NCBI GenBank assembly: GCA_900299125.1
Contig: OMIR01000068.1
Span: forward strand, 1 to 64,000
DNA length: 64,000 nucleotides
From: Nitrosopumilales archaeon
GTDB lineage: Archaea > Thermoproteota > Nitrososphaeria > Nitrososphaerales > Nitrosopumilaceae
Reading direction: 5' to 3'
The notes beneath the pieces were generated by a model. The model worked only from the letters and a program-made list of their open reading frames with translations, had not been told where the DNA came from and made no database searches. Both the position numbers and the translations under genes were made by a program. This document shows positions 4,913 to 14,091 of this stretch, piece after piece (positions within the stretch are counted from its first letter, which is position 1; every line of letters starts with the position of its first letter).

Positions 4913-4986
4913 GCCAATATAGCTCAGCCTGGCAGAGCAACGGTTTTGTAAACCGTGGGTCAAGGGTCCAAATCCCTTTATTGGCT
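4913..4986 (+). tRNA. tRNA-Thr (anticodon TGT)
   Basis: A 74-base intron-free tRNA. The acceptor stem GCCAATA/TATTGGC, the D-arm with AGCTC...GAGC, the anticodon stem ACGGT/ACCGT around the loop TTTGTAA, and the T-arm AAGGG-TCCAAAT-CCCTT all pair. The anticodon TGT at 4947-4949 reads ACA threonine codons. The T-loop has TCCAAAT instead of the canonical TTCRANT, a minor departure. CC follows the discriminator base, but a full CCA is not encoded. Confidence 0.95.
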
Positions 4987-5369
4987 CCTTAAATTTTACA
5001 TACTCACCATACCTCCCTCATTTTGATAATGACATTATCATTTTGTGCCTGATTTGTTTATTTTTGATCTAGAGTTTTTCCCTTTTGAATAAATCCATTT
5101 TGGATCTCCAAACAATAATAGTTCCATCCCACCAGACCCACCATAATTGAAATTCAATGATATTTTTTTATAAAATTATAATATGATTTTCATTAATAGT
5201 AAATCTCTTTACGAGTTTTTGATAGATATACACTTCAAGACATTCTCTCGCAACATATTCTTGCAAAACAGAAGATTACAAATTTCTCTGATGCTCACGC
5301 CATCGACCAATCAAAAATAGAAGTGTTTTACGAATTCTAACAAAATACATTTCTACAATAAAATTATGT
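4987..5369. other. Intergenic region, no gene seen
   Basis: About 380 bases of AT-rich DNA between tRNA-Thr and the 3' end of phoU. No reading frame with protein-like composition was found on either strand. The only structure noticed is a seven-pair inverted repeat TGATAAT-GAC-ATTATCA at 5024-5040 and several T-tracts that could end transcription from both sides. Confidence 0.6.
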
Positions 5370-6005
5370 TTAGGGTAATTTTTGTAGCTTGTGCTTTCCT
5401 GTAACAATATAGTTTATGGCATCGCTCATGAACAAGGCATGATCTGCAATTCTCTCAAGATATCGAAGAATCAAGGCTTCTGCCAGTGCACATTTTGTAT
5501 TCTGTGAGTTGATTAACATTGGCAATCGTTGCTTGTATAGTTTATCTACAAATTCCTCATTTTCCTGCATGATTACTGATTTTCTGATATCGAGCTCGGA
5601 AAAATACAGAACAGAATCCTTGATCATTGTCTTGACCTTGTTTGATACTTCAATTAGCCAGCTTTTGTCGCACTCTGAGATATCTCCAAAGACATCCCGG
5701 ACTGATGCGATGTCATATGCATATCTACCAAATCTTGTAAAGCCATATGAAATCTCAATTGATGAACGAATAAATCTGAAGTCGTCGGCGACAGGTTGGT
5801 ATTTTAGAAAAATATCAAACGTAAGATCTGCTACGGCGAAATATCTTCTTGATATCTCATTGGATATGTCATGGACTTTTTTACTTTCGTCTTTTCCGTA
5901 AAGATACGAATCAATTGCAAGCATGATGCTTTGTACTGCAAGGTCTCCCATCTCTGACATCATTCCTGATAGTTTTTTTATTGACGGGTCGATTAGCCGA
6001 GTCAT
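5370..6005 (-). CDS. phoU: PhoU-like phosphate uptake regulator
   Basis: A 211-residue all-helical protein with two PhoU three-helix repeats; the acidic/polar signature DxxxxxERIAD-like ALILRYLERIADHALFMSDAI near the C-terminus is typical of PhoU, where it helps bind metal clusters. PhoU proteins restrain the Pst transporter when phosphate is plentiful. It is the last gene of the minus-strand run pstC-pstA-pstB-phoU, starting exactly where pstB ends, so co-transcription is very likely. Confidence 0.92.
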   Translation of the reverse strand: MTRLIDPSIKKLSGMMSEMGDLAVQSIMLAIDSYLYGKDESKKVHDISNEISRRYFAVADLTFDIFLKYQPVADDFRFIRSSIEISYGFTRFGRYAYDIASVRDVFGDISECDKSWLIEVSNKVKTMIKDSVLYFSELDIRKSVIMQENEEFVDKLYKQRLPMLINSQNTKCALAEALILRYLERIADHALFMSDAINYIVTGKHKLQKLP

Positions 6006-6821
6006 CTAACCAAACTGCCCCTGGACATATCTTGCGGTTAGCTCGTTTTGTGGCTGGGTAAAGATCTTTTTTGTCTCATTGAACTCGATCAGTTCGCCAA
6101 GATACATGAATGCAGTATAATCAGAAACACGAACTGCTTGTTGCATGTTGTGTGTCACTATTATGATTGTGAATTCTTTTGCAAGATCAATTATAGTCTC
6201 TTCTATTTTTTGAGTGGCGATTGGATCCAGTGCTGATGCTGGCTCATCCATCAATAACACTTCTGGTTGGATTGCCAAGGCTCGTGCAATGCAAACTCTT
6301 TGTTGTTGTCCACCGGATAATTCCATTGCAGGTTTTTTGAGATTGGACTTTACCTCATCCCAAAGATATGCCATTTTTAGAGAGTCTTCGACTATTTCAT
6401 CCAGAATTTTTTTGTCTCTGACTCCATTTAGGCGCAAGCCGGCGGCCACATTGTCATAAATTGACATTGTTGGAAACGGGTTTGGCTTTTGAAACACCAT
6501 ACCGACCTTGCGTCGGTGGTATATCGGATCCACGTCCTTTGAGTACAAGTCCTCCCCATCTAGCAGTATTTTCCCCTCCACTCTGGCGTTTTTTGTCATG
6601 TCGTGCATTCTGTTGAGGCATCGCAAAAACGTAGTCTTGCCGCAACCGGATGGACCAATAAGGGACGTGACGCTTTTTTCCTTGAACTTCATTGTGATGT
6701 TTTTGACCGTATGAATTCCGTCATAATACACTGAGACATCTTCTGCGATCATCTTGTATTTTCTGTTGTCTGGTAATGGGTTTTCCGATGCATTGCTTTG
6801 TACGTCTATTAGGGCAGTCAT
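6006..6821 (-). CDS. pstB: Phosphate ABC transporter ATP-binding protein
   Basis: The ATPase that drives phosphate import. The 271-residue protein has Walker [10 protein letters not shown] near residues 57-65, the Q-loop in [11 protein letters not shown] (typical of PstB), the ABC signature LSGGQQQR, Walker [12 protein letters not shown] and the switch His in [10 protein letters not shown]. Length and sequence fit PstB closely. It overlaps pstA by four bases at its start and abuts phoU at its end. Confidence 0.97.
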
Positions 6822-7744
6822 TGTCTTTTTCCTCCCATTATTCTGTAAAACAGTTTGCCTTTTGAGGAATTTTTTGTCGCAAAATAATATCTAACGCCTA
6901 TGTTTATTGCAAGAATTATTATTATCAAAACTACTGCGGCACCCCAACCTTGTAGTCTTGCACTGTCATATGGAAGCAACGATAGTCTCCATACCCGAAG
7001 TGGCAATGCATCCATTGGGGAGTCAAAGCCGGCAAAGAATTGACTGCTTCCAAGAACCGTCATGATTAATGGTGCAGTTTCTCCAGAGATTCTGGCAACT
7101 GCGAGCAAAATCCCGGTAATCATGCCATTTTTTGCAGCAGAAAGAACTATCCTGAATGTAACTACCCACTGTCTTAGGCCCAAGGCCAGTCCTGCTTCTC
7201 TGTATGTTAATGGAACAAGCTTGAGAGATTCTTCTGTAGTTCTAGCAACTATTGGAAACATGATGAGCGATAATGCAAACGCTCCTGCCCACAAGGTAAA
7301 ATGCCCGAGCAATAACACTATGGACAAAAACGCAAAAATTCCTAAAACTATGGATGGAAACTCCATGAATACATCGTTGAAAAAGCGGACGGTTTTGCCA
7401 AGCTTGTTGCCTCCAAATTCAGACAAAAAGATTCCAGCCATCACTCCCACTGGAATTCCAATAACGCTAGACATGCCTATTATGATCAGAGTTCCCTGTA
7501 TGGCGGGGCCTATTCCGCCTTCGCCAGTTCCTATTGCCCCTGGCGCCTGAGTCAGAAACTCGACTGACAGTGCAGGCAGACCATTTTTGAAAACTTCCAA
7601 AAGAATGCTGCCAAGCGGTATTATTGCAACTATTACGCAGCTCAGAACTATCCCCATCACAATCTTGTCTACAATCAGTCTGCCCTTGACATTGTGTCTG
7701 AACAACGATCTGTATTCGGATCTTTTCTGAGAAGATGACATCAT
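6818..7744 (-). CDS. pstA: Phosphate ABC transporter permease PstA
   Basis: Inner-membrane channel subunit of the Pst importer, 308 residues with about six membrane helices. The cytoplasmic coupling loop with [11 protein letters not shown]...[30 protein letters not shown] is the binding-protein-dependent permease signature as found in PstA. The basic N-terminus precedes the first helix at about residue 27. Four-base overlaps with pstC upstream and pstB downstream show tight operon structure. Confidence 0.95.
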
Positions 7745-8706
7745 GCGTTTATCACTCCTTCTTTTACTTTGAGCATTCTTAAGACCAAAATATGTGCCAC
7801 AATATTGATTGCAATTGCAACCAATAACAATGTAAAGCCAATACCAATTAGTGCCGGAAGGTGCAAAGATGCAGGAGACGCTTCAATGAACTCGTTTGCT
7901 ATTATGCTCGACATTGTTTGTCCTGGCTGGAAAAGAGTTTGCGGAAATGCACTGGGACCAGTCGCATTACCAATTAGCATTGTTACTGCCATTGTTTCTC
8001 CCACCGCTCTTCCCAATCCGAGAATCGCAGCGCCAACAAGCCCTGTCTTTGCATATGGAAATATTGCGAGTTTGAACATTTCCCACTTTGTGGCACCTAG
8101 CATGTAGGCTGCCTCTTTTTGCATGTGTGGAACTGCACCCATTATTTCTCGTGAAACCGCAGAAATTGTTGGTATGATCATTATTGCCAAAATTATGCTG
8201 GCGCTAAAAATATCAAGACCAAATGGAGCAGACGAAAAAATCCATACTATCTCTCCAAGAGCATCATGTAGAGGATATTCTATGTTATACAGTAAAAAAT
8301 CCCTGAAAACTATTAGGCCCCAGAATCCGTAAATTATGCTTGGAACCGCTGCCAAAAGATCAATTACTATTGCCAGAGGATTAGCTATGAATTTTGGGGC
8401 TTGCGAAATAAACATTGCAATTCCTATGCTTACTGGAACTCCCATTACCATTGCAAGGCCGGCAGTGACCAAAGTTCCCATGATGTACGGTGCAGATCCG
8501 TATGCTTCTCTACCCTTTACTGCATTCCAATCAGAGCCAGATATGAAGCTCAGTCCTTCCTTTTCCCAAATCAGATGTGATTCTGAGTACAGATGGCCGA
8601 CAACTAGTATTATTATGAGCAGTATGTAGACGCCTGCAGCAGTTGCTGCAATTTTGAATATTTTATCAGCTGGAATTTGTGATTTGGATTTTTTACCTGC
8701 TAGCAC
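7741..8706 (-). CDS. pstC: Phosphate ABC transporter permease PstC
   Basis: Second channel subunit of the Pst importer, 321 residues with six or more membrane helices. The loop KEAAYMLGATKWEMFKLAIFPYAKTGLVGAAILGLGRAVGETMAV is the PstC form of the permease coupling motif. It is the first gene of the pstCAB-phoU operon and starts with GTG. The promoter region is shared with the divergent AbrB-PhoU regulator and contains overlapping palindromes. Confidence 0.95.
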   Translation of the reverse strand: MLAGKKSKSQIPADKIFKIAATAAGVYILLIIILVVGHLYSESHLIWEKEGLSFISGSDWNAVKGREAYGSAPYIMGTLVTAGLAMVMGVPVSIGIAMFISQAPKFIANPLAIVIDLLAAVPSIIYGFWGLIVFRDFLLYNIEYPLHDALGEIVWIFSSAPFGLDIFSASIILAIMIIPTISAVSREIMGAVPHMQKEAAYMLGATKWEMFKLAIFPYAKTGLVGAAILGLGRAVGETMAVTMLIGNATGPSAFPQTLFQPGQTMSSIIANEFIEASPASLHLPALIGIGFTLLLVAIAINIVAHILVLRMLKVKEGVINA

Positions 8707-8764
8707 TGGTTAGAAGTTGATTAAGTGTAGTTTTATTGCAGATCCACATACTCTACTGAGCCTC

Positions 8765-8789
8765 TATAGATCTATATTGTTCAATATAG
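8765..8789. promoter_or_regulatory. Overlapping palindromes between pstC and the AbrB-PhoU gene
   Basis: Two perfect palindromes overlap here: TATAGATCTATA (8765-8776) and CTATATTG-TT-CAATATAG (8772-8789). They lie in the 116-base divergent promoter region, about 60-80 bases before pstC and 35-55 before the regulator start, where TATA elements and a dimeric repressor site would be expected. The AbrB-type domain encoded next door is a candidate binder. Function is inferred from position and symmetry only. Confidence 0.55.
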
Positions 8790-8822
8790 TATAATGACCA
8801 AACTAGTATCTACTTTTGCAAC

Positions 8823-9863
8823 TTGACAATAATTGTGCATGACACCAAACAAATTCGCCGTATACAGAAAAGCGGAGGATCAACCTACACAATATCACTC
8901 CCAAAAAAATGGGTTGACGAGCTTGGAATAAAAAACGGCGACAATATGACGATTATAAAAAATTCAAACCGTTCTATAACTGTGTTTTTAGGATTGGATA
9001 ACGAAAAACAAGTAAAACAAGCGATATTCACAATTGGCCAAAAAGATACTCCGGAATCCATTAGAAGAAAAATAATCGCATTGTATCTTGCTGGATACAA
9101 GACTATTCAAATCACATCAAAGGGAGTAAAGATCCTACCGGAGCATTCTCGGCTCATAAAAGACCTAGTGAGAAAATCTATGATTGGAACGGAAATAGTA
9201 GAATCCGATTCTGAATCGATAACAATTCAAATCTTGACAAGACTGCCCGAGCTGACATTCGAGGTCGCCCTGAAAAGAATGTACCTGATGACTGCAAACA
9301 TGCACCGTGAGGCGATGGAGGCGCTTAGAAAATTCGATGTTGAATATGGAGAAGAGGTAGTCAGAATGGATGATGAAGTAGACAGATTCAGCCTGTACAT
9401 GATGAGAACTCTTGTCATGGCAATACAAAACTCTAGCATACTTTACGATGTTGGACTTGAGCAGCCGTCTGATTGCCTGAACTATCGCACCGTCATATCC
9501 AGAATAGAAAGAATTGCGGATCATGCTGCATTGATTGCAAAGAGAATAAAATTTCTAAAAGAGCCACTAGAACCAAAACTTCTCAAGGAACTAGAGGCGC
9601 TGAGCGAGGCCGCAGTTTTCTGTTTTGAGAGTTCCATAACCGCATTGACAAAAAAAGACCACGCATTGGCAGAAAAAGTGGCTGCAAACATTGCTCAGGT
9701 AATTGGAAAGGAAAAAGAACTCATGTATGCAATGAAGGAATCAAAACACTCTACAATAGTAAAGTTCACTCTAGAAGACATACGAAGAACTGCAGAATAC
9801 TCTAGCGATATAATAGAAACTGTGGTTAACGAGACCATTCGTGAAATAATAAGCGAAAAATAA
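8823..9863 (+). CDS. AbrB-domain / PhoU-domain fusion regulator
   Basis: A 346-residue protein joining an N-terminal SpoVT/AbrB-like DNA-binding swapped-hairpin domain (residues about 5-50, with IQKSGGSTYTISLPKKWV) to a PhoU-like helical region (about 110-346) containing two DHAALI / ERIADHA-type stretches. Such fusions are common in archaea beside pst genes and are thought to be phosphate-responsive transcription regulators. It starts at TTG 8823; an in-frame GTG four codons later is also possible, while the nearby ATG is out of frame. It diverges from pstC, so it probably controls the shared promoter region and perhaps itself. Confidence 0.88.
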   Translation: MTIIVHDTKQIRRIQKSGGSTYTISLPKKWVDELGIKNGDNMTIIKNSNRSITVFLGLDNEKQVKQAIFTIGQKDTPESIRRKIIALYLAGYKTIQITSKGVKILPEHSRLIKDLVRKSMIGTEIVESDSESITIQILTRLPELTFEVALKRMYLMTANMHREAMEALRKFDVEYGEEVVRMDDEVDRFSLYMMRTLVMAIQNSSILYDVGLEQPSDCLNYRTVISRIERIADHAALIAKRIKFLKEPLEPKLLKELEALSEAAVFCFESSITALTKKDHALAEKVAANIAQVIGKEKELMYAMKESKHSTIVKFTLEDIRRTAEYSSDIIETVVNETIREIISEK

Positions 9864-9939
9864 TTCAATACTTTGAGGCTAATCTGGTCTCAGTCTGAAT
9901 AAAAAATATATAAAAATTAAAAAATAAAGAAAAAACTCT

Positions 9940-10569
9940 TTATTCGTATGGTTTCTTGTTTTGCTTATCTGCAATCATTGCATTGAAATCTAGAGATTCC
10001 ATATTGAATCCGTTGCAAGCAAATGTGTAAGTTTCCACAACTGCAAATCCTGTTTTTCCACCTGTTGTATAACCCTCCTCATTGTCAGTTCTTGTGTTAA
10101 TTTTGTAATTAGTAATTGAACAGTCTTTGTATTCAATTGTCCTCAAAGATTTTTCTGCTTGCATCATCTCAATTGTGACATCAAACATCTTGTAATCATA
10201 TTCTGAAATGGTTTTACCTCCATTTTCAAATGTCTGATCTACTGCTTTGTGCAAATAAGGGGTATCACCTACAACTTTGACAAGCGTAAATTCTGGGCTT
10301 ATAGTTCTAGTTGATGTAAAACCATTAGCCGTTGTACCAAACAGATTGTTAGTCATATCATATAATTGGAAATCATATGTTACGGTACCGCTTCTGAAAT
10401 TGAATGTTGCTTGTGGATAAACTCCTTCTCCAAAGATATAGACATTGTTGCCCTTTGGTGGATCAACTGCTTGAACGTTTACTGTCTGGGACAAATTAAC
10501 TATCAAGGCAATTGATGCTATAGCAATTGCAGCAATGATTGAAGTTGTCTTTAGTTTTTGTGTGGTCAT
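9940..10569 (-). CDS. Secreted protein of unknown function in the phosphate locus
   Basis: A 209-residue product with a clear N-terminal signal peptide (hydrophobic residues 11-24, likely cleavage after VQA around residue 34) and no further membrane segment. The mature part is polar and beta-strand-like, with two cysteines (KDC and FAC) that may form a disulfide. No family is recognised. It sits between the phosphate regulator and pstS and is divergent from pstS, sharing a 219-base promoter region with palindromes, so phosphate-dependent expression is plausible but not shown. Confidence 0.8.
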   Translation of the reverse strand: MTTQKLKTTSIIAAIAIASIALIVNLSQTVNVQAVDPPKGNNVYIFGEGVYPQATFNFRSGTVTYDFQLYDMTNNLFGTTANGFTSTRTISPEFTLVKVVGDTPYLHKAVDQTFENGGKTISEYDYKMFDVTIEMMQAEKSLRTIEYKDCSITNYKINTRTDNEEGYTTGGKTGFAVVETYTFACNGFNMESLDFNAMIADKQNKKPYE

Positions 10570-10638
10570 TGCTCTTGTTTGAAGTCACTATTAATAAAAA
10601 AGAATCCTCATTGATTTGGTATTGTATTGTTGTAACTA

Positions 10639-10748
10639 TAAACTATATAGTTTAAAGCCAAAAATTTGCAATTTTAGAACATCTTTCATACATAGATTAA
10701 TTGGCACTATATAGAAAACTGATCTCAACGTAAAAAATGTAATCTATG
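10639..10748. promoter_or_regulatory. Palindromes in the divergent pstS promoter region
   Basis: The region upstream of pstS contains the perfect palindrome TAAACTATATAGTTTA (10639-10654), a second CTATATAG (10707-10714) and a nine-base inverted pair CATAGATTA (10691-10699) / TAATCTATG (10740-10748). The CTATA...TATAG core recurs in the pstC promoter palindromes. Position between two divergent genes suggests operator and TATA elements of a phosphate regulon. No binding data can be read from sequence. Confidence 0.5.
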
Positions 10749-10788
10749 CCGATTATTTGTATATAACAAACAAATCTCTTTCTGATCA

Positions 10789-12060
10789 ATGAAGCAAATA
10801 CTATCTATAACACTAAGTCTGATTCTCATGGTAGGAGTCTTTACTCCTTTGGCAAATGCAGTCATACCAGAACCGCCTAAGTCTGACAAGCAATTTCAGA
10901 TAAACGGCGCAGGAGCCACATTTCCATATCCACTAATTGATACATGGAGAGTAGAATACAACAAACTATACTCTAATGTGAATCTGAATTATCAATCTAT
11001 TGGTAGTGGTGGAGGAGTTTCAGCACACACTGCAAAAACTGTAAACTTTGGTGCATCTGATGCACCACTTCAGCCAGAAGAAAGAAGTCTAGCTACAGGA
11101 ACACTACACATTCCAGAAGCAATAGGATCGGTCGTGTTAGCATATTATCTACCTGAGGTCCCAAAAAGTGGACTAAAACTTACAGGCGAGAATGTGGCCG
11201 ACATTTATCTTGGAAAAATCAAAAGATGGAACGATCCAAAAATCCAAGAGAACAATCCTGACCTAAAGCTTCCTGATAGGCCAATCCTTGTAACTAGACG
11301 ATCCGATGGATCTGGAACAACATATGTCTTTACGGATTATCTTTCCAAAGTAAGTCAGGAATGGAATCAAAAAGTAGGTAAAGGCAAATCAGTTCCATGG
11401 CCAACTGGAATTGGAGCTGCAGGAAACGAAGGTGTTGCATGGGCTACTCGAAACACCAAGTATGCAATTGGTTATGTAGAACTTGCATATGCAAAATCAA
11501 ATGAAATGACCATTGCGTATCTGCAAAATGGCGACAAAACTGCCTTTGTAGAGCCTACGTTTGACACCGTCTTTGAAGGTGCAAAAGCATATCCTGTAGA
11601 CAAGATACCAAAGCCAGAACAAGACTGGAGCCAAGTAAGCATGGTTTTGGCACCGGGACAGAATTCGTATCCTATAGTCAGTTTCACATATCTTTTGATA
11701 TATGAGGACATCAACCAAGCCATTTCTGACAAAGACATGGCAAAGGCGTTTGTCCACATGGTATATTGGATGGTGACTGACGGGCAGAAATTCTCAAAGC
11801 CACTTGGATATGTACCGTTACCGCCAGCGATTCAGGAGCTTGACAAGCAGGGACTCTCTAGAATAAAGTTCGAAGGCGAACAATTATGGAATCCTGGAAC
11901 ATCTAGCTTTCCTAAAGCCGACGCAAAGACAGATGTAAAATCAGACATAAAGACCAAAGTAACCAAGACTGACATCAAAAAGACCGATGTTAAAAAATCG
12001 GAACCAAAAAAGACAGACAAAAAACCCGTTAAAAAAACCAGTAAAACTGGCAGCAAGTGA
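10789..12060 (+). CDS. pstS: Phosphate-binding protein PstS with lysine-rich tail
   Basis: Extracytoplasmic receptor that delivers phosphate to PstCAB. The 423-residue protein has a signal peptide (residues 1-24, ending ANA) and the PstS hallmarks INGAGATFPYPL near residue 35, GSGGG, FGASDAPL and TRRSDGSGTTYVFTDYL, which contact phosphate. There is no lipobox cysteine at the cleavage site and no C-terminal membrane helix. Instead the last 45 or so residues are a Lys/Thr/Asp-rich low-complexity tail with repeated TD(I/V)K units, unusual for PstS. It stands apart from pstCAB behind its own promoter. Confidence 0.95.
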   Translation: MKQILSITLSLILMVGVFTPLANAVIPEPPKSDKQFQINGAGATFPYPLIDTWRVEYNKLYSNVNLNYQSIGSGGGVSAHTAKTVNFGASDAPLQPEERSLATGTLHIPEAIGSVVLAYYLPEVPKSGLKLTGENVADIYLGKIKRWNDPKIQENNPDLKLPDRPILVTRRSDGSGTTYVFTDYLSKVSQEWNQKVGKGKSVPWPTGIGAAGNEGVAWATRNTKYAIGYVELAYAKSNEMTIAYLQNGDKTAFVEPTFDTVFEGAKAYPVDKIPKPEQDWSQVSMVLAPGQNSYPIVSFTYLLIYEDINQAISDKDMAKAFVHMVYWMVTDGQKFSKPLGYVPLPPAIQELDKQGLSRIKFEGEQLWNPGTSSFPKADAKTDVKSDIKTKVTKTDIKKTDVKKSEPKKTDKKPVKKTSKTGSK

Positions 12061-12415
12061 TTATCACTAGCTGATACAACTATATTTTTCTCAATAAACT
12101 GAATCTGGATCTTTTCGAATTAATTTCTTCACGCATGTCGACATTACTGAATATCTTTACCTTGTAGTCCATCCCGAATTGTAAATACTAATCATGAATA
12201 ATAAAATAAAGAAACAACAATGTTGTGATAACCTACCCTGTAGAAGCCGTATTTGTCGTATTTTTTAAAAAGTCCCAATTACGTAGTATAAAACTACTAA
12301 TTTTTAAGATTTTTAATCAATTGAACATAGGGGAATTTCCACTTTAGTGCAAATCCAACTCTGCCAAAAATGATCAAATCTCCAACATTGCCAATTTTTT
12401 ATTTTTTTCATGTTC

Positions 12416-12461
12416 GGGCTTTGCCCCATTTGGGTAAAGCCCTTTATTGGCTTTTTTTGAT
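12416..12461 (+). promoter_or_regulatory. Mutually exclusive hairpins with T-tract (attenuator-like)
   Basis: Hairpin A pairs GGGCTTT (12416-12422) with AAAGCCC (12436-12442), with an inner CCCA/TGGG stem. Hairpin B pairs the same AAAGCC (12436-12441) with GGCTTT (12449-12454) and runs straight into TTTT and a second T-run. Only one can form at a time; B looks like a terminator and A like its antiterminator. This arrangement is seen directly; its regulatory use is inferred. Confidence 0.5.
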
Positions 12462-12502
12462 TTTTGTTCCAATGATTTATTAGAGGATCAGAAACTTTGA
12501 CA

Positions 12503-12560
12503 GTCATTAGGCTATAATGACGGAAAATAAGCAATGAGCTTCTTTGTCTGTCATTGCTTA
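12503..12560 (+). promoter_or_regulatory. Two hairpins directly before the helicase start codon
   Basis: Hairpin C is GTCATTA (12503-12509) with TAATGAC (12515-12521), seven pairs with a five-base loop. Hairpin D is TAAGCAATGA (12528-12537) with TCATTGCTTA (12551-12560), ten perfect pairs with a thirteen-base loop, ending ten bases before the TTG start at 12571. TCATT of C can also pair with AATGA of D. Such structure next to the start could control translation or mRNA decay. Confidence 0.55.
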
Positions 12561-12570
12561 GGAAATTAAA

Positions 12571-14091
12571 TTGACAAAATTCGAAGAATTAGGAATAAAA
12601 CAATCGATCCTAGATGGATTAAGAGAAATTGGATTTGATGAGGCATTTCCAATCCAAGAGGCAACTATACCTGTTTTATTATCAGGTAGGGACGTAATAG
12701 GCCAAGCACATACTGGTACCGGTAAAACTGCCGCTTTTGGAATATCAATGCTAAACGCAATTGATGCAAATAAATCAATTCAAGGACTAGTTTTGGCGCC
12801 AACCAGGGAACTTGCACTACAAATCACTGATGAAATCAAAAAATTTGCCAAGCATACAGGCATCAAAGTCGTTTCAATTTATGGAGGACAGGGAATGGGT
12901 GTTCAACTACAAGCTCTCAGACATGGGGTTGAAATCGTAGTCGCCACGCCGGGAAGGCTAATTGATCACCTAAAACAAGGCTCTATTGAGCTCAACGACA
13001 TCAGATATGTCGTTCTAGACGAAGCAGACACAATGCTCGATATGGGATTCATTGATGATATTCGATTCATTTTGGAAATGGCGCCAGTCAAAAAGGTGAT
13101 GTCTCTTTTTTCAGCCACAATGCCACCAGAAATTCTAAGATTAGCAGATGAATATCTGAACAATCCAAAACAATTTCTTTTATCCGCTGATGATCTCTCC
13201 GGAGAGGGAATTGACCAATCATTTCTAATCATCAAAGATAGGGAGAAAATGGATTACCTATTACAATTCATCAAGGAAAATAAAAAATCCCAATCAGTCG
13301 TGTTTTGTTCGACTAAAAACAGAACAAGGGATGTTGCCCGAGGATTACGCCAGTCGGGATTTAACGCAGTTGCTATTGAGGGCGACATGTCTCAGCACAG
13401 ACGAGAGATATCAATGTCACAATTTAGACGCGGACAGGCAGACATTTTGGTTGCAACAGATGTAGCTGCAAGAGGGATAGATGTTCCAGAAGTAGCACTA
13501 GTAGTGAATTATGATGTACCAAATCAAGAAATGGTCTATTTTCACAGAATAGGAAGGACCGCAAGGGCGGGTGCAAAAGGAAGAGCAATCACACTGGTGT
13601 CATATTCTTCTGTTGGTGAATTTAATCTAATTAAGCAGCAAGTAAAAGCTCCAATGACTGATCTTAATGAGAAAATGGGAATTACTGTCGATATTCCAGA
13701 TCCTCTAAAAAGACAAGTTGGTCCACGTCGGACATTTGGACGTGGTAATTTTGGTGGAGGTAGGAGTTTTGGTAGAGGCGGTTTTGGCAGGGGTGGTTTT
13801 GGACGTAGTGGTGGTTTTGGGGGACGTAGAGATTATGACAGACGTGATTCAAGTAGAGGTGAGAGAAGGCAGTCAGAATACAGACGGGATAATGACAGAG
13901 GTGTTGATTACAGAAGGGATAATGACAGAAAGCAGTCAGACACCAGAGGTAGTTTTGGTCGAGGCAGGCAATACGACAGACATTATTCCGGAAGAGATGA
14001 AAGAAGGGAAGAAAAAAGAGAGTTTAGAACCGAGAGTGGGTATGGCAGACAACATGGACCAAAGCGCTCAGCGCACAGACGACGCTGGTAA
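12571..14091 (+). CDS. DEAD-box RNA helicase with Arg/Gly-rich tail
   Basis: ATP-dependent RNA unwinding protein of 506 residues. All helicase motifs are present: Q motif region with FPIQEATIP, Walker A AHTGTGKT (about 46-53), APTRELALQ, TPGRLIDHL, DEAD (about 150-153), SATMP, and HRIGRTARAG. From about residue 383 the C-terminus is an RGG/RG- and Tyr/Asp-rich tail expected to bind RNA, as in cold-induced archaeal and bacterial helicases. Start is TTG at 12571, after a short GGAAATTAAA spacer. The leader with several hairpins suggests post-transcriptional control, perhaps by temperature or by the helicase itself. The Lrp-like gene follows by 32 bases. Confidence 0.95.
   Translation: MTKFEELGIKQSILDGLREIGFDEAFPIQEATIPVLLSGRDVIGQAHTGTGKTAAFGISMLNAIDANKSIQGLVLAPTRELALQITDEIKKFAKHTGIKVVSIYGGQGMGVQLQALRHGVEIVVATPGRLIDHLKQGSIELNDIRYVVLDEADTMLDMGFIDDIRFILEMAPVKKVMSLFSATMPPEILRLADEYLNNPKQFLLSADDLSGEGIDQSFLIIKDREKMDYLLQFIKENKKSQSVVFCSTKNRTRDVARGLRQSGFNAVAIEGDMSQHRREISMSQFRRGQADILVATDVAARGIDVPEVALVVNYDVPNQEMVYFHRIGRTARAGAKGRAITLVSYSSVGEFNLIKQQVKAPMTDLNEKMGITVDIPDPLKRQVGPRRTFGRGNFGGGRSFGRGGFGRGGFGRSGGFGGRRDYDRRDSSRGERRQSEYRRDNDRGVDYRRDNDRKQSDTRGSFGRGRQYDRHYSGRDERREEKREFRTESGYGRQHGPKRSAHRRRW

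Follow-up and report, generated by a model that had tools for sequence, protein, structure and literature searches.

A covarying two-stem hairpin precedes the deaD helicase gene of Nitrosopumilaceae and, in one genome, follows an unrelated insertion junction

Several inverted repeats crowd the DNA upstream of a helicase gene in a Nitrosopumilales archaeon, and they raise the question of whether they form one regulatory RNA leader. We analysed a stretch of 64,000 nucleotides (hereafter, the window) in which this gene starts with a TTG at 12571. Its product is a cold-related RNA helicase:

12571-14091, + strand: deaD, DEAD-box RNA helicase with an RGG-rich tail (Pfam DEAD 3e-52, Helicase_C 1.2e-31)

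The part of deaD that encodes the RGG tail (13715-13840) has many G runs (GGTGG, GGGG), which could form a G-quadruplex in the mRNA. Autoregulation via RGG/G-quadruplex was proposed in other systems (PMC11789052).

An earlier, sequence-only reading had described four inverted repeats, and all four are present where it placed them. The sequence GGGCTTTGCCC (12416-12426) matches GGGTAAAGCCC (12432-12442) over 11 nt at 91%, and AAAGCC (12436) is followed by its downstream partner GGCTTTTTTT (12449-12458). The third repeat, GTCATTA (12503-12509) with TAATGAC (12515-12521), forms seven of seven pairs. The fourth, TAAGCAATGA (12528-12537) with TCATTGCTTA (12551-12560), forms ten of ten and ends ten bases short of the TTG. 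The strand from 12406 to 12600 has a folding energy of -57.7 kcal/mol, against -39.3 kcal/mol in shuffles (z -5.0, none of 200 shuffles as low). That one single leader holds all four repeats is not confirmed: positions 12436-12452 are a copy of a tRNA-Thr 3' end at an insertion junction, and a TATA-like box (12476-12483) lies downstream of the first two hairpin forms. The repeats fall into two unrelated things, a junction at 12416-12460 and a conserved RNA structure within 12509-12560.

The segment 12416-12460 is almost certainly the right-hand junction of a 7.45-kb pst (phosphate-uptake) insertion at the 3' end of a tRNA-Thr gene. We infer the insertion because, in alignments with five other genomes of the genus, the window matches up to 4986 and again from 12436; these sisters lack the intervening 7.45 kb and carry an intact tRNA-Thr directly upstream of deaD. 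The 17-base tRNA end is found in two copies, AAATCCCTTTATTGGCT at 4970-4986 and AAAGCCCTTTATTGGCT at 12436-12452. The features of this region are:

4913-4988: tRNA-Thr(TGT), whose 3' end is the insertion target
7741-8706: permease, inside the insert
8823-9863: PhoU-domain regulator, inside the insert
10789-12060: pstS, inside the insert
12416-12442, + strand: junction hairpin, outside the leader; single copy in the genome, missing at the same place in the sister genomes
12436-12452, + strand: duplicated tRNA-Thr 3' end, 16/17 identical to 4970-4986; in the sisters, the end of the intact tRNA-Thr just 5' of deaD
12452-12458: T-tract, formerly the 3' flank of the tRNA gene

The insert also encodes a second permease, pstB and phoU, assigned by sequence motifs. 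The sequence flanking pstS occurs at other sites in other members of the genus. The GGGCTTT/AAAGCCC hairpin at the junction was found only once in a search of the genome. The arrangement resembles that of integrative elements and islands found at the 3' ends of tRNA genes, since the insert lies at tRNA-Thr and the tRNA 3' end is duplicated. It differs from them in that no integrase was seen within the 7.45-kb insert (4987-12436) and in its content, a pst cassette; the comparison concerns 4987-12452 and not the leader. In another genome of the genus (G094, leader L002), deaD is preceded by a tRNA-Thr 3' fragment CCCTTTATTGGC that lacks the rest of the tRNA and has differing sequence upstream, which suggests that the same tRNA independently received another insertion. 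The pst insertion is an example of an unrelated DNA junction mimicking a regulatory leader.

Downstream of the junction, the sequence TTTATTAG (allowing at most one mismatch) recurs 24-34 nt 5' of the conserved leader block, i.e., of the 5' arm of the stem P1 described below, in 112 of 126 Nitrosopumilaceae leaders. The background expectation is 3.7%. Box and leader are both conserved, and the spacer between them is not. Such a pattern would be expected where a TATA box is followed, after a spacer, by a transcribed leader. Hence, the start is predicted near 12505-12512, which would put P1 at the 5' end of the mRNA:

12476-12483, + strand: TATA-like box TTTATTAG of the putative deaD promoter
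12505-12512, + strand: predicted transcription start zone, from the TATA spacing (22-27 nt past the TATA-like box)
12560-12570, + strand: single-stranded AGGAAATTAAA, putative ribosome-binding stretch (from its sequence; unpaired in the P1+P2 fold at 37 °C)

Transcription would thus probably begin just 5' of P1. With such a start the junction hairpins would lie upstream of the transcript, and the left arm of the seven-pair hairpin would be partly or wholly outside it. As far as the sequence can tell, the start falls downstream of 12460, a position that the sequence-only reading had itself named as speaking against its leader. The conserved block ends 15-35 nt before the start codon (126 leaders), and the transcript leader has a predicted length of about 60 nt.

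An RNA structure in the deaD leader of Nitrosopumilaceae is very probably under selection. We gathered deaD upstream regions from about 127 genomes of 21 genera and tested covariation on a sequence-only alignment of 50 diverse leaders. One region (L138, genome G128) was left out, as it came from the wrong side of the gene. The structure has these parts in the window:

12509-12512, + strand: P0 5' strand AGGC, pairing with GCTT at 12556-12559 (minimum-energy folds of the window and of L009)
12516-12524, + strand: P1 5' arm AATGACGGA
12529-12541, + strand: P2 inner hairpin AAGC-AATGA-GCTT, enclosed by P1 (two alignments)
12547-12555, + strand: P1 3' arm TCTGTCATT

The outer stem P1 pairs AAUGACGGA with UCUGUCAUU in the family. 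Over the counted pairs (5' AATGACG, 3' TGTCATT), 98.5% of the cells were paired in the 50 leaders, against 94.0% in shuffles, where cells are sequences rather than independent events and the number of events is smaller than that of cells. Six of the seven pairs had changed on both sides, against 1.7 in shuffles, and none of 500 shuffles attained any of the five measures. The score of P1 also far exceeded those of slid controls. Replaced arm pairs include AATAACG/CGTTATT (L075, L089), AACGACG/CGTTGTT (L091), GGCGGAG/CTCTGCC (L060), CGATGGA/TCTATCG (L071), TGACGACTGAG/TTCGGTCGTCG (L103) and AATAGCGGA/TCCGTTATT (L153). Such two-sided changes were found in six genera (g2, g9, g11, g12, g16, g19), more than once in some. 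When arms were swapped among the 21 genera, P1 arms paired best within their own genus, and none of 2000 permutations was as good. The first six pairs of P1 had 23 G-U cells and only 3 A-C cells, which points to an RNA transcribed in the direction of deaD and not to a DNA palindrome.

The other parts of the structure vary more. P2 is present in most leaders, e.g., as AGGT-AATG-ACCT in L108 and AGG-TTCG-CTT in g19. On the sequence alignment 73.8% of its cells were paired, which is weak alone; on the model-fitted alignment, which leans towards structure, the value was 80.3%, with all four pairs changed on both sides. The P0 pairing AGGC/GCTT lengthens the base of the hairpin in the genus of the window. 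In representatives of the 21 genera the leader folds are more stable than those of shuffled sequences (median z -2.7), and RNAalifold on a MAFFT alignment recovered only the four central pairs of P1. The compensatory changes that the sequence-only reading had proposed to look for in relatives are therefore found, in favour of its structured archaeal deaD leader under selection for RNA pairing. The pairing under selection is the one that it had mentioned in passing, as a cross-pairing of two hairpins.

The element is restricted to one gene and one family. A covariance model gave one clear match per genome, at deaD, in 14 of the 17 genomes of the genus; in the other three (G106, G121, G131) the deaD ortholog was also not found in the assemblies. 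Searched across the order, the model matched 51 Nitrosopumilaceae genomes, once each, and the sole match outside the family was marginal (E 0.004) and not at deaD. Model R2 had no match at DEAD-box loci of Nitrososphaeraceae, Bathyarchaeota, Thermococcus (L287, L288) or bacteria. The leader element was thus found only in cis to deaD; no repeated copy was found elsewhere in the genome, and no phage similarity was found. Rfam reported two tRNAs in the window above the curated threshold and nothing on the leader; at E ≤ 5 it added two matches of chance level, which lie 5' of the leader hairpin. A tRNA-Val(CAC) at 137-233 of the window is 97 bases long, enough for an intron.

The Nitrososphaeraceae (f3, L165-L209), the neighbouring family, have a different, strongly conserved leader (ACAAAAG, ACGGCGGAT, TCTTCCGTGGCTTTTGT) before deaD, after a TTATAT box. 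In most rows ACAAAAG pairs with CTTTTGT and CACGG with CCGTG, without covariation (88.2%, and 88.2% in shuffles), and an alternative stem was weak. We rejected a homologous structure in this family because its pairing shows no covariation beyond shuffles, and therefore claim no common structure.

The hairpin most likely acts in cis, on the mRNA of the helicase itself. Its restriction to one gene and its position at the predicted 5' end of the mRNA favour a cis element on deaD, with the helicase as the simplest partner, and a helicase-dependent element is a reasonable inference. Taken together, the evidence tips slightly towards a deaD mRNA that starts, in Nitrosopumilaceae, with a two-stem hairpin that influences deaD expression in cis. 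That the helicase autoregulates its gene in cis is plausible, and we hold this more tentatively. The hairpin, in which P1 encloses P2, would begin a few bases from the predicted start and end some 15-35 bases 5' of the start codon. It might be a binding or unwinding substrate of the DeaD protein, or a shield of the 5' end. The stability of the mRNA or its ribosome loading would then track the unwinding capacity of the cell: at low helicase levels or in the cold the hairpin would stay closed and the mRNA be protected, and ample helicase would open it. The direction of this control is a guess.

Long deaD leaders and a tie between DEAD-box helicases and cold are known in archaea (PMC4247193, PMC8397731). 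The cold-inducible deaD of Thermococcus kodakarensis, TK0306, has a leader of 159 nt that contains a tRNA-Lys (PMC4247193). Like TK0306 and the deaD of Methanococcoides burtonii, likewise cold-inducible and with a long leader, the locus studied here is a gene of the deaD kind preceded by an untranslated leader. It differs from TK0306-type leaders in its shorter predicted leader with a covarying hairpin, whose model is without match at the two Thermococcus loci, and in that its tRNA-Thr is a separate upstream gene in the sister genomes. A tRNA-Thr(TGT) lies directly upstream of deaD in several genera (L003, L009, L017, L018), and the parallel with the tRNA of T. kodakarensis is possibly a coincidence. 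Also comparable are the autoregulatory protein-binding leaders of ribosomal-protein genes, including the archaeal S15, eL15 and L4 candidates (PMC7247131), which are also lineage-restricted, covarying 5' hairpins acting in cis on one gene. Here, the gene encodes a helicase instead, and its autoregulation is a proposal.

The alternative that survives best is a two-state switch, in which P1+P2 competes for one 3' arm with another helix, and the helicase level or temperature selects the fold. The competitor is the ten-pair hairpin of the sequence-only reading:

12528-12560, + strand: helix B, alternative helix using the P1 3' arm

Helix B is kept in many genera, indeed in most (79.5% of cells paired, seven of nine pairs two-sided, reached by 9 of 500 shuffles), although its sequence overlaps P1 and P2 and its score is partly inherited from them. 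In L089 all three strands have changed together (AATAACG, GCAATAA, CGTTATTGC). Yet g9 and the majority of g19 have P1 but no helix B, and for the window P1+P2 is predicted to be the more stable fold, by 4.8-7.4 kcal/mol between 37 and 4 °C. The alternative fold is therefore possible in many species, but not universal. Two genomes of g16 (L097, L101) speak against the P1-based reading, since they keep a stem like helix B with little of P1 left. We consider the two-state switch possible but unlikely. The fuller version, in which both P1+P2 and helix B are functional, unwinding by DeaD picks between these states of a helicase-sensing switch at the mRNA 5' end, and Nitrososphaeraceae evolved a counterpart independently, is somewhat less likely again.

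In g19 leaders, including L107, L120 and L124, GATAGAGAAA or GACAG directly ahead of the start codon is another possible partner of the P1 3' arm TTTCTCTGTC; this alternative is specific to the clade and occurs where helix B has been lost. The seven-pair hairpin at 12503-12521, which had been read as part of the leader, was rejected as a conserved element: its 36.7% of paired cells equals the shuffle mean.

A zipper-type RNA thermometer, masking the ribosome-binding site in the cold or heat, would suit a gene of cold-related type, and genomes of ammonia-oxidising archaea encode cold-shock DEAD-box proteins (PMC8397731). The Escherichia coli cspA mRNA, described as an RNA thermometer (PMC5378194), offers a parallel, since it too encodes an RNA-remodelling protein of the cold response and its leader has possible alternative folds; the deaD leader is much shorter, and has a predicted fold that is stable at all temperatures and leaves the start region uncovered. 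The P1+P2 hairpin is predicted to be stable from 4 to 45 °C, with the ribosome-binding stretch and the start codon outside the fold and the stretch before the start largely open, and a simple thermometer is therefore disfavoured. The thermosensor proposed from the sequence is thus not indicated in its classical form, and we regard it as improbable. We also rejected an "anti-start" pairing of the P1 3' arm with AATGACA at the start codon, since start regions taken from other genera are better partners for this arm than its own is (1989/2000).

Inverted repeats near promoters are typical of operators, and P1 begins close to the expected transcription start, as would suit a DNA operator bound by a dimeric regulator. 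DNA binding would not yield the strand bias of P1 (23 G-U to 3 A-C cells), the spacing between the arms varies, and the inner stem is kept, all of which make an operator very improbable. More doubtful still is a short upstream ORF (ATGACG...TGA) governing deaD by translation. Its ATG lies inside the P1 5' arm and an in-frame stop is often found in CAATGA, but the ATG is in frame with deaD in L084, and we rejected the ORF as a general feature because several lineages (L075, L089, L091, L153, L150, L154) lost the ATG and kept the pairing. Least credible is the antiterminator/terminator switch of the sequence-only reading, with AAAGCC choosing between GGGCTTT and GGCTTTTTTT, since its pairings and T-tract are present but belong to the single-copy pst junction, which carries the duplicated tRNA end, is missing at the same place in five sisters and lies upstream of the conserved TATA-like box, and no T-run follows the P1 3' arm or position 12560.

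Only "a handful" of archaeal cis-regulatory RNAs are known or predicted (PMC7247131). The deaD hairpin, whose covariation extends over about twenty genera of abundant ammonia oxidisers, is short, tied to a single gene and amenable to simple tests. Should DeaD act on the leader of its own mRNA, this would be RNA-level autoregulation of a helicase in archaea. If the helicase-sensing switch were true, the leader would be a feedback gauge of RNA-unwinding capacity in ammonia-oxidising archaea.
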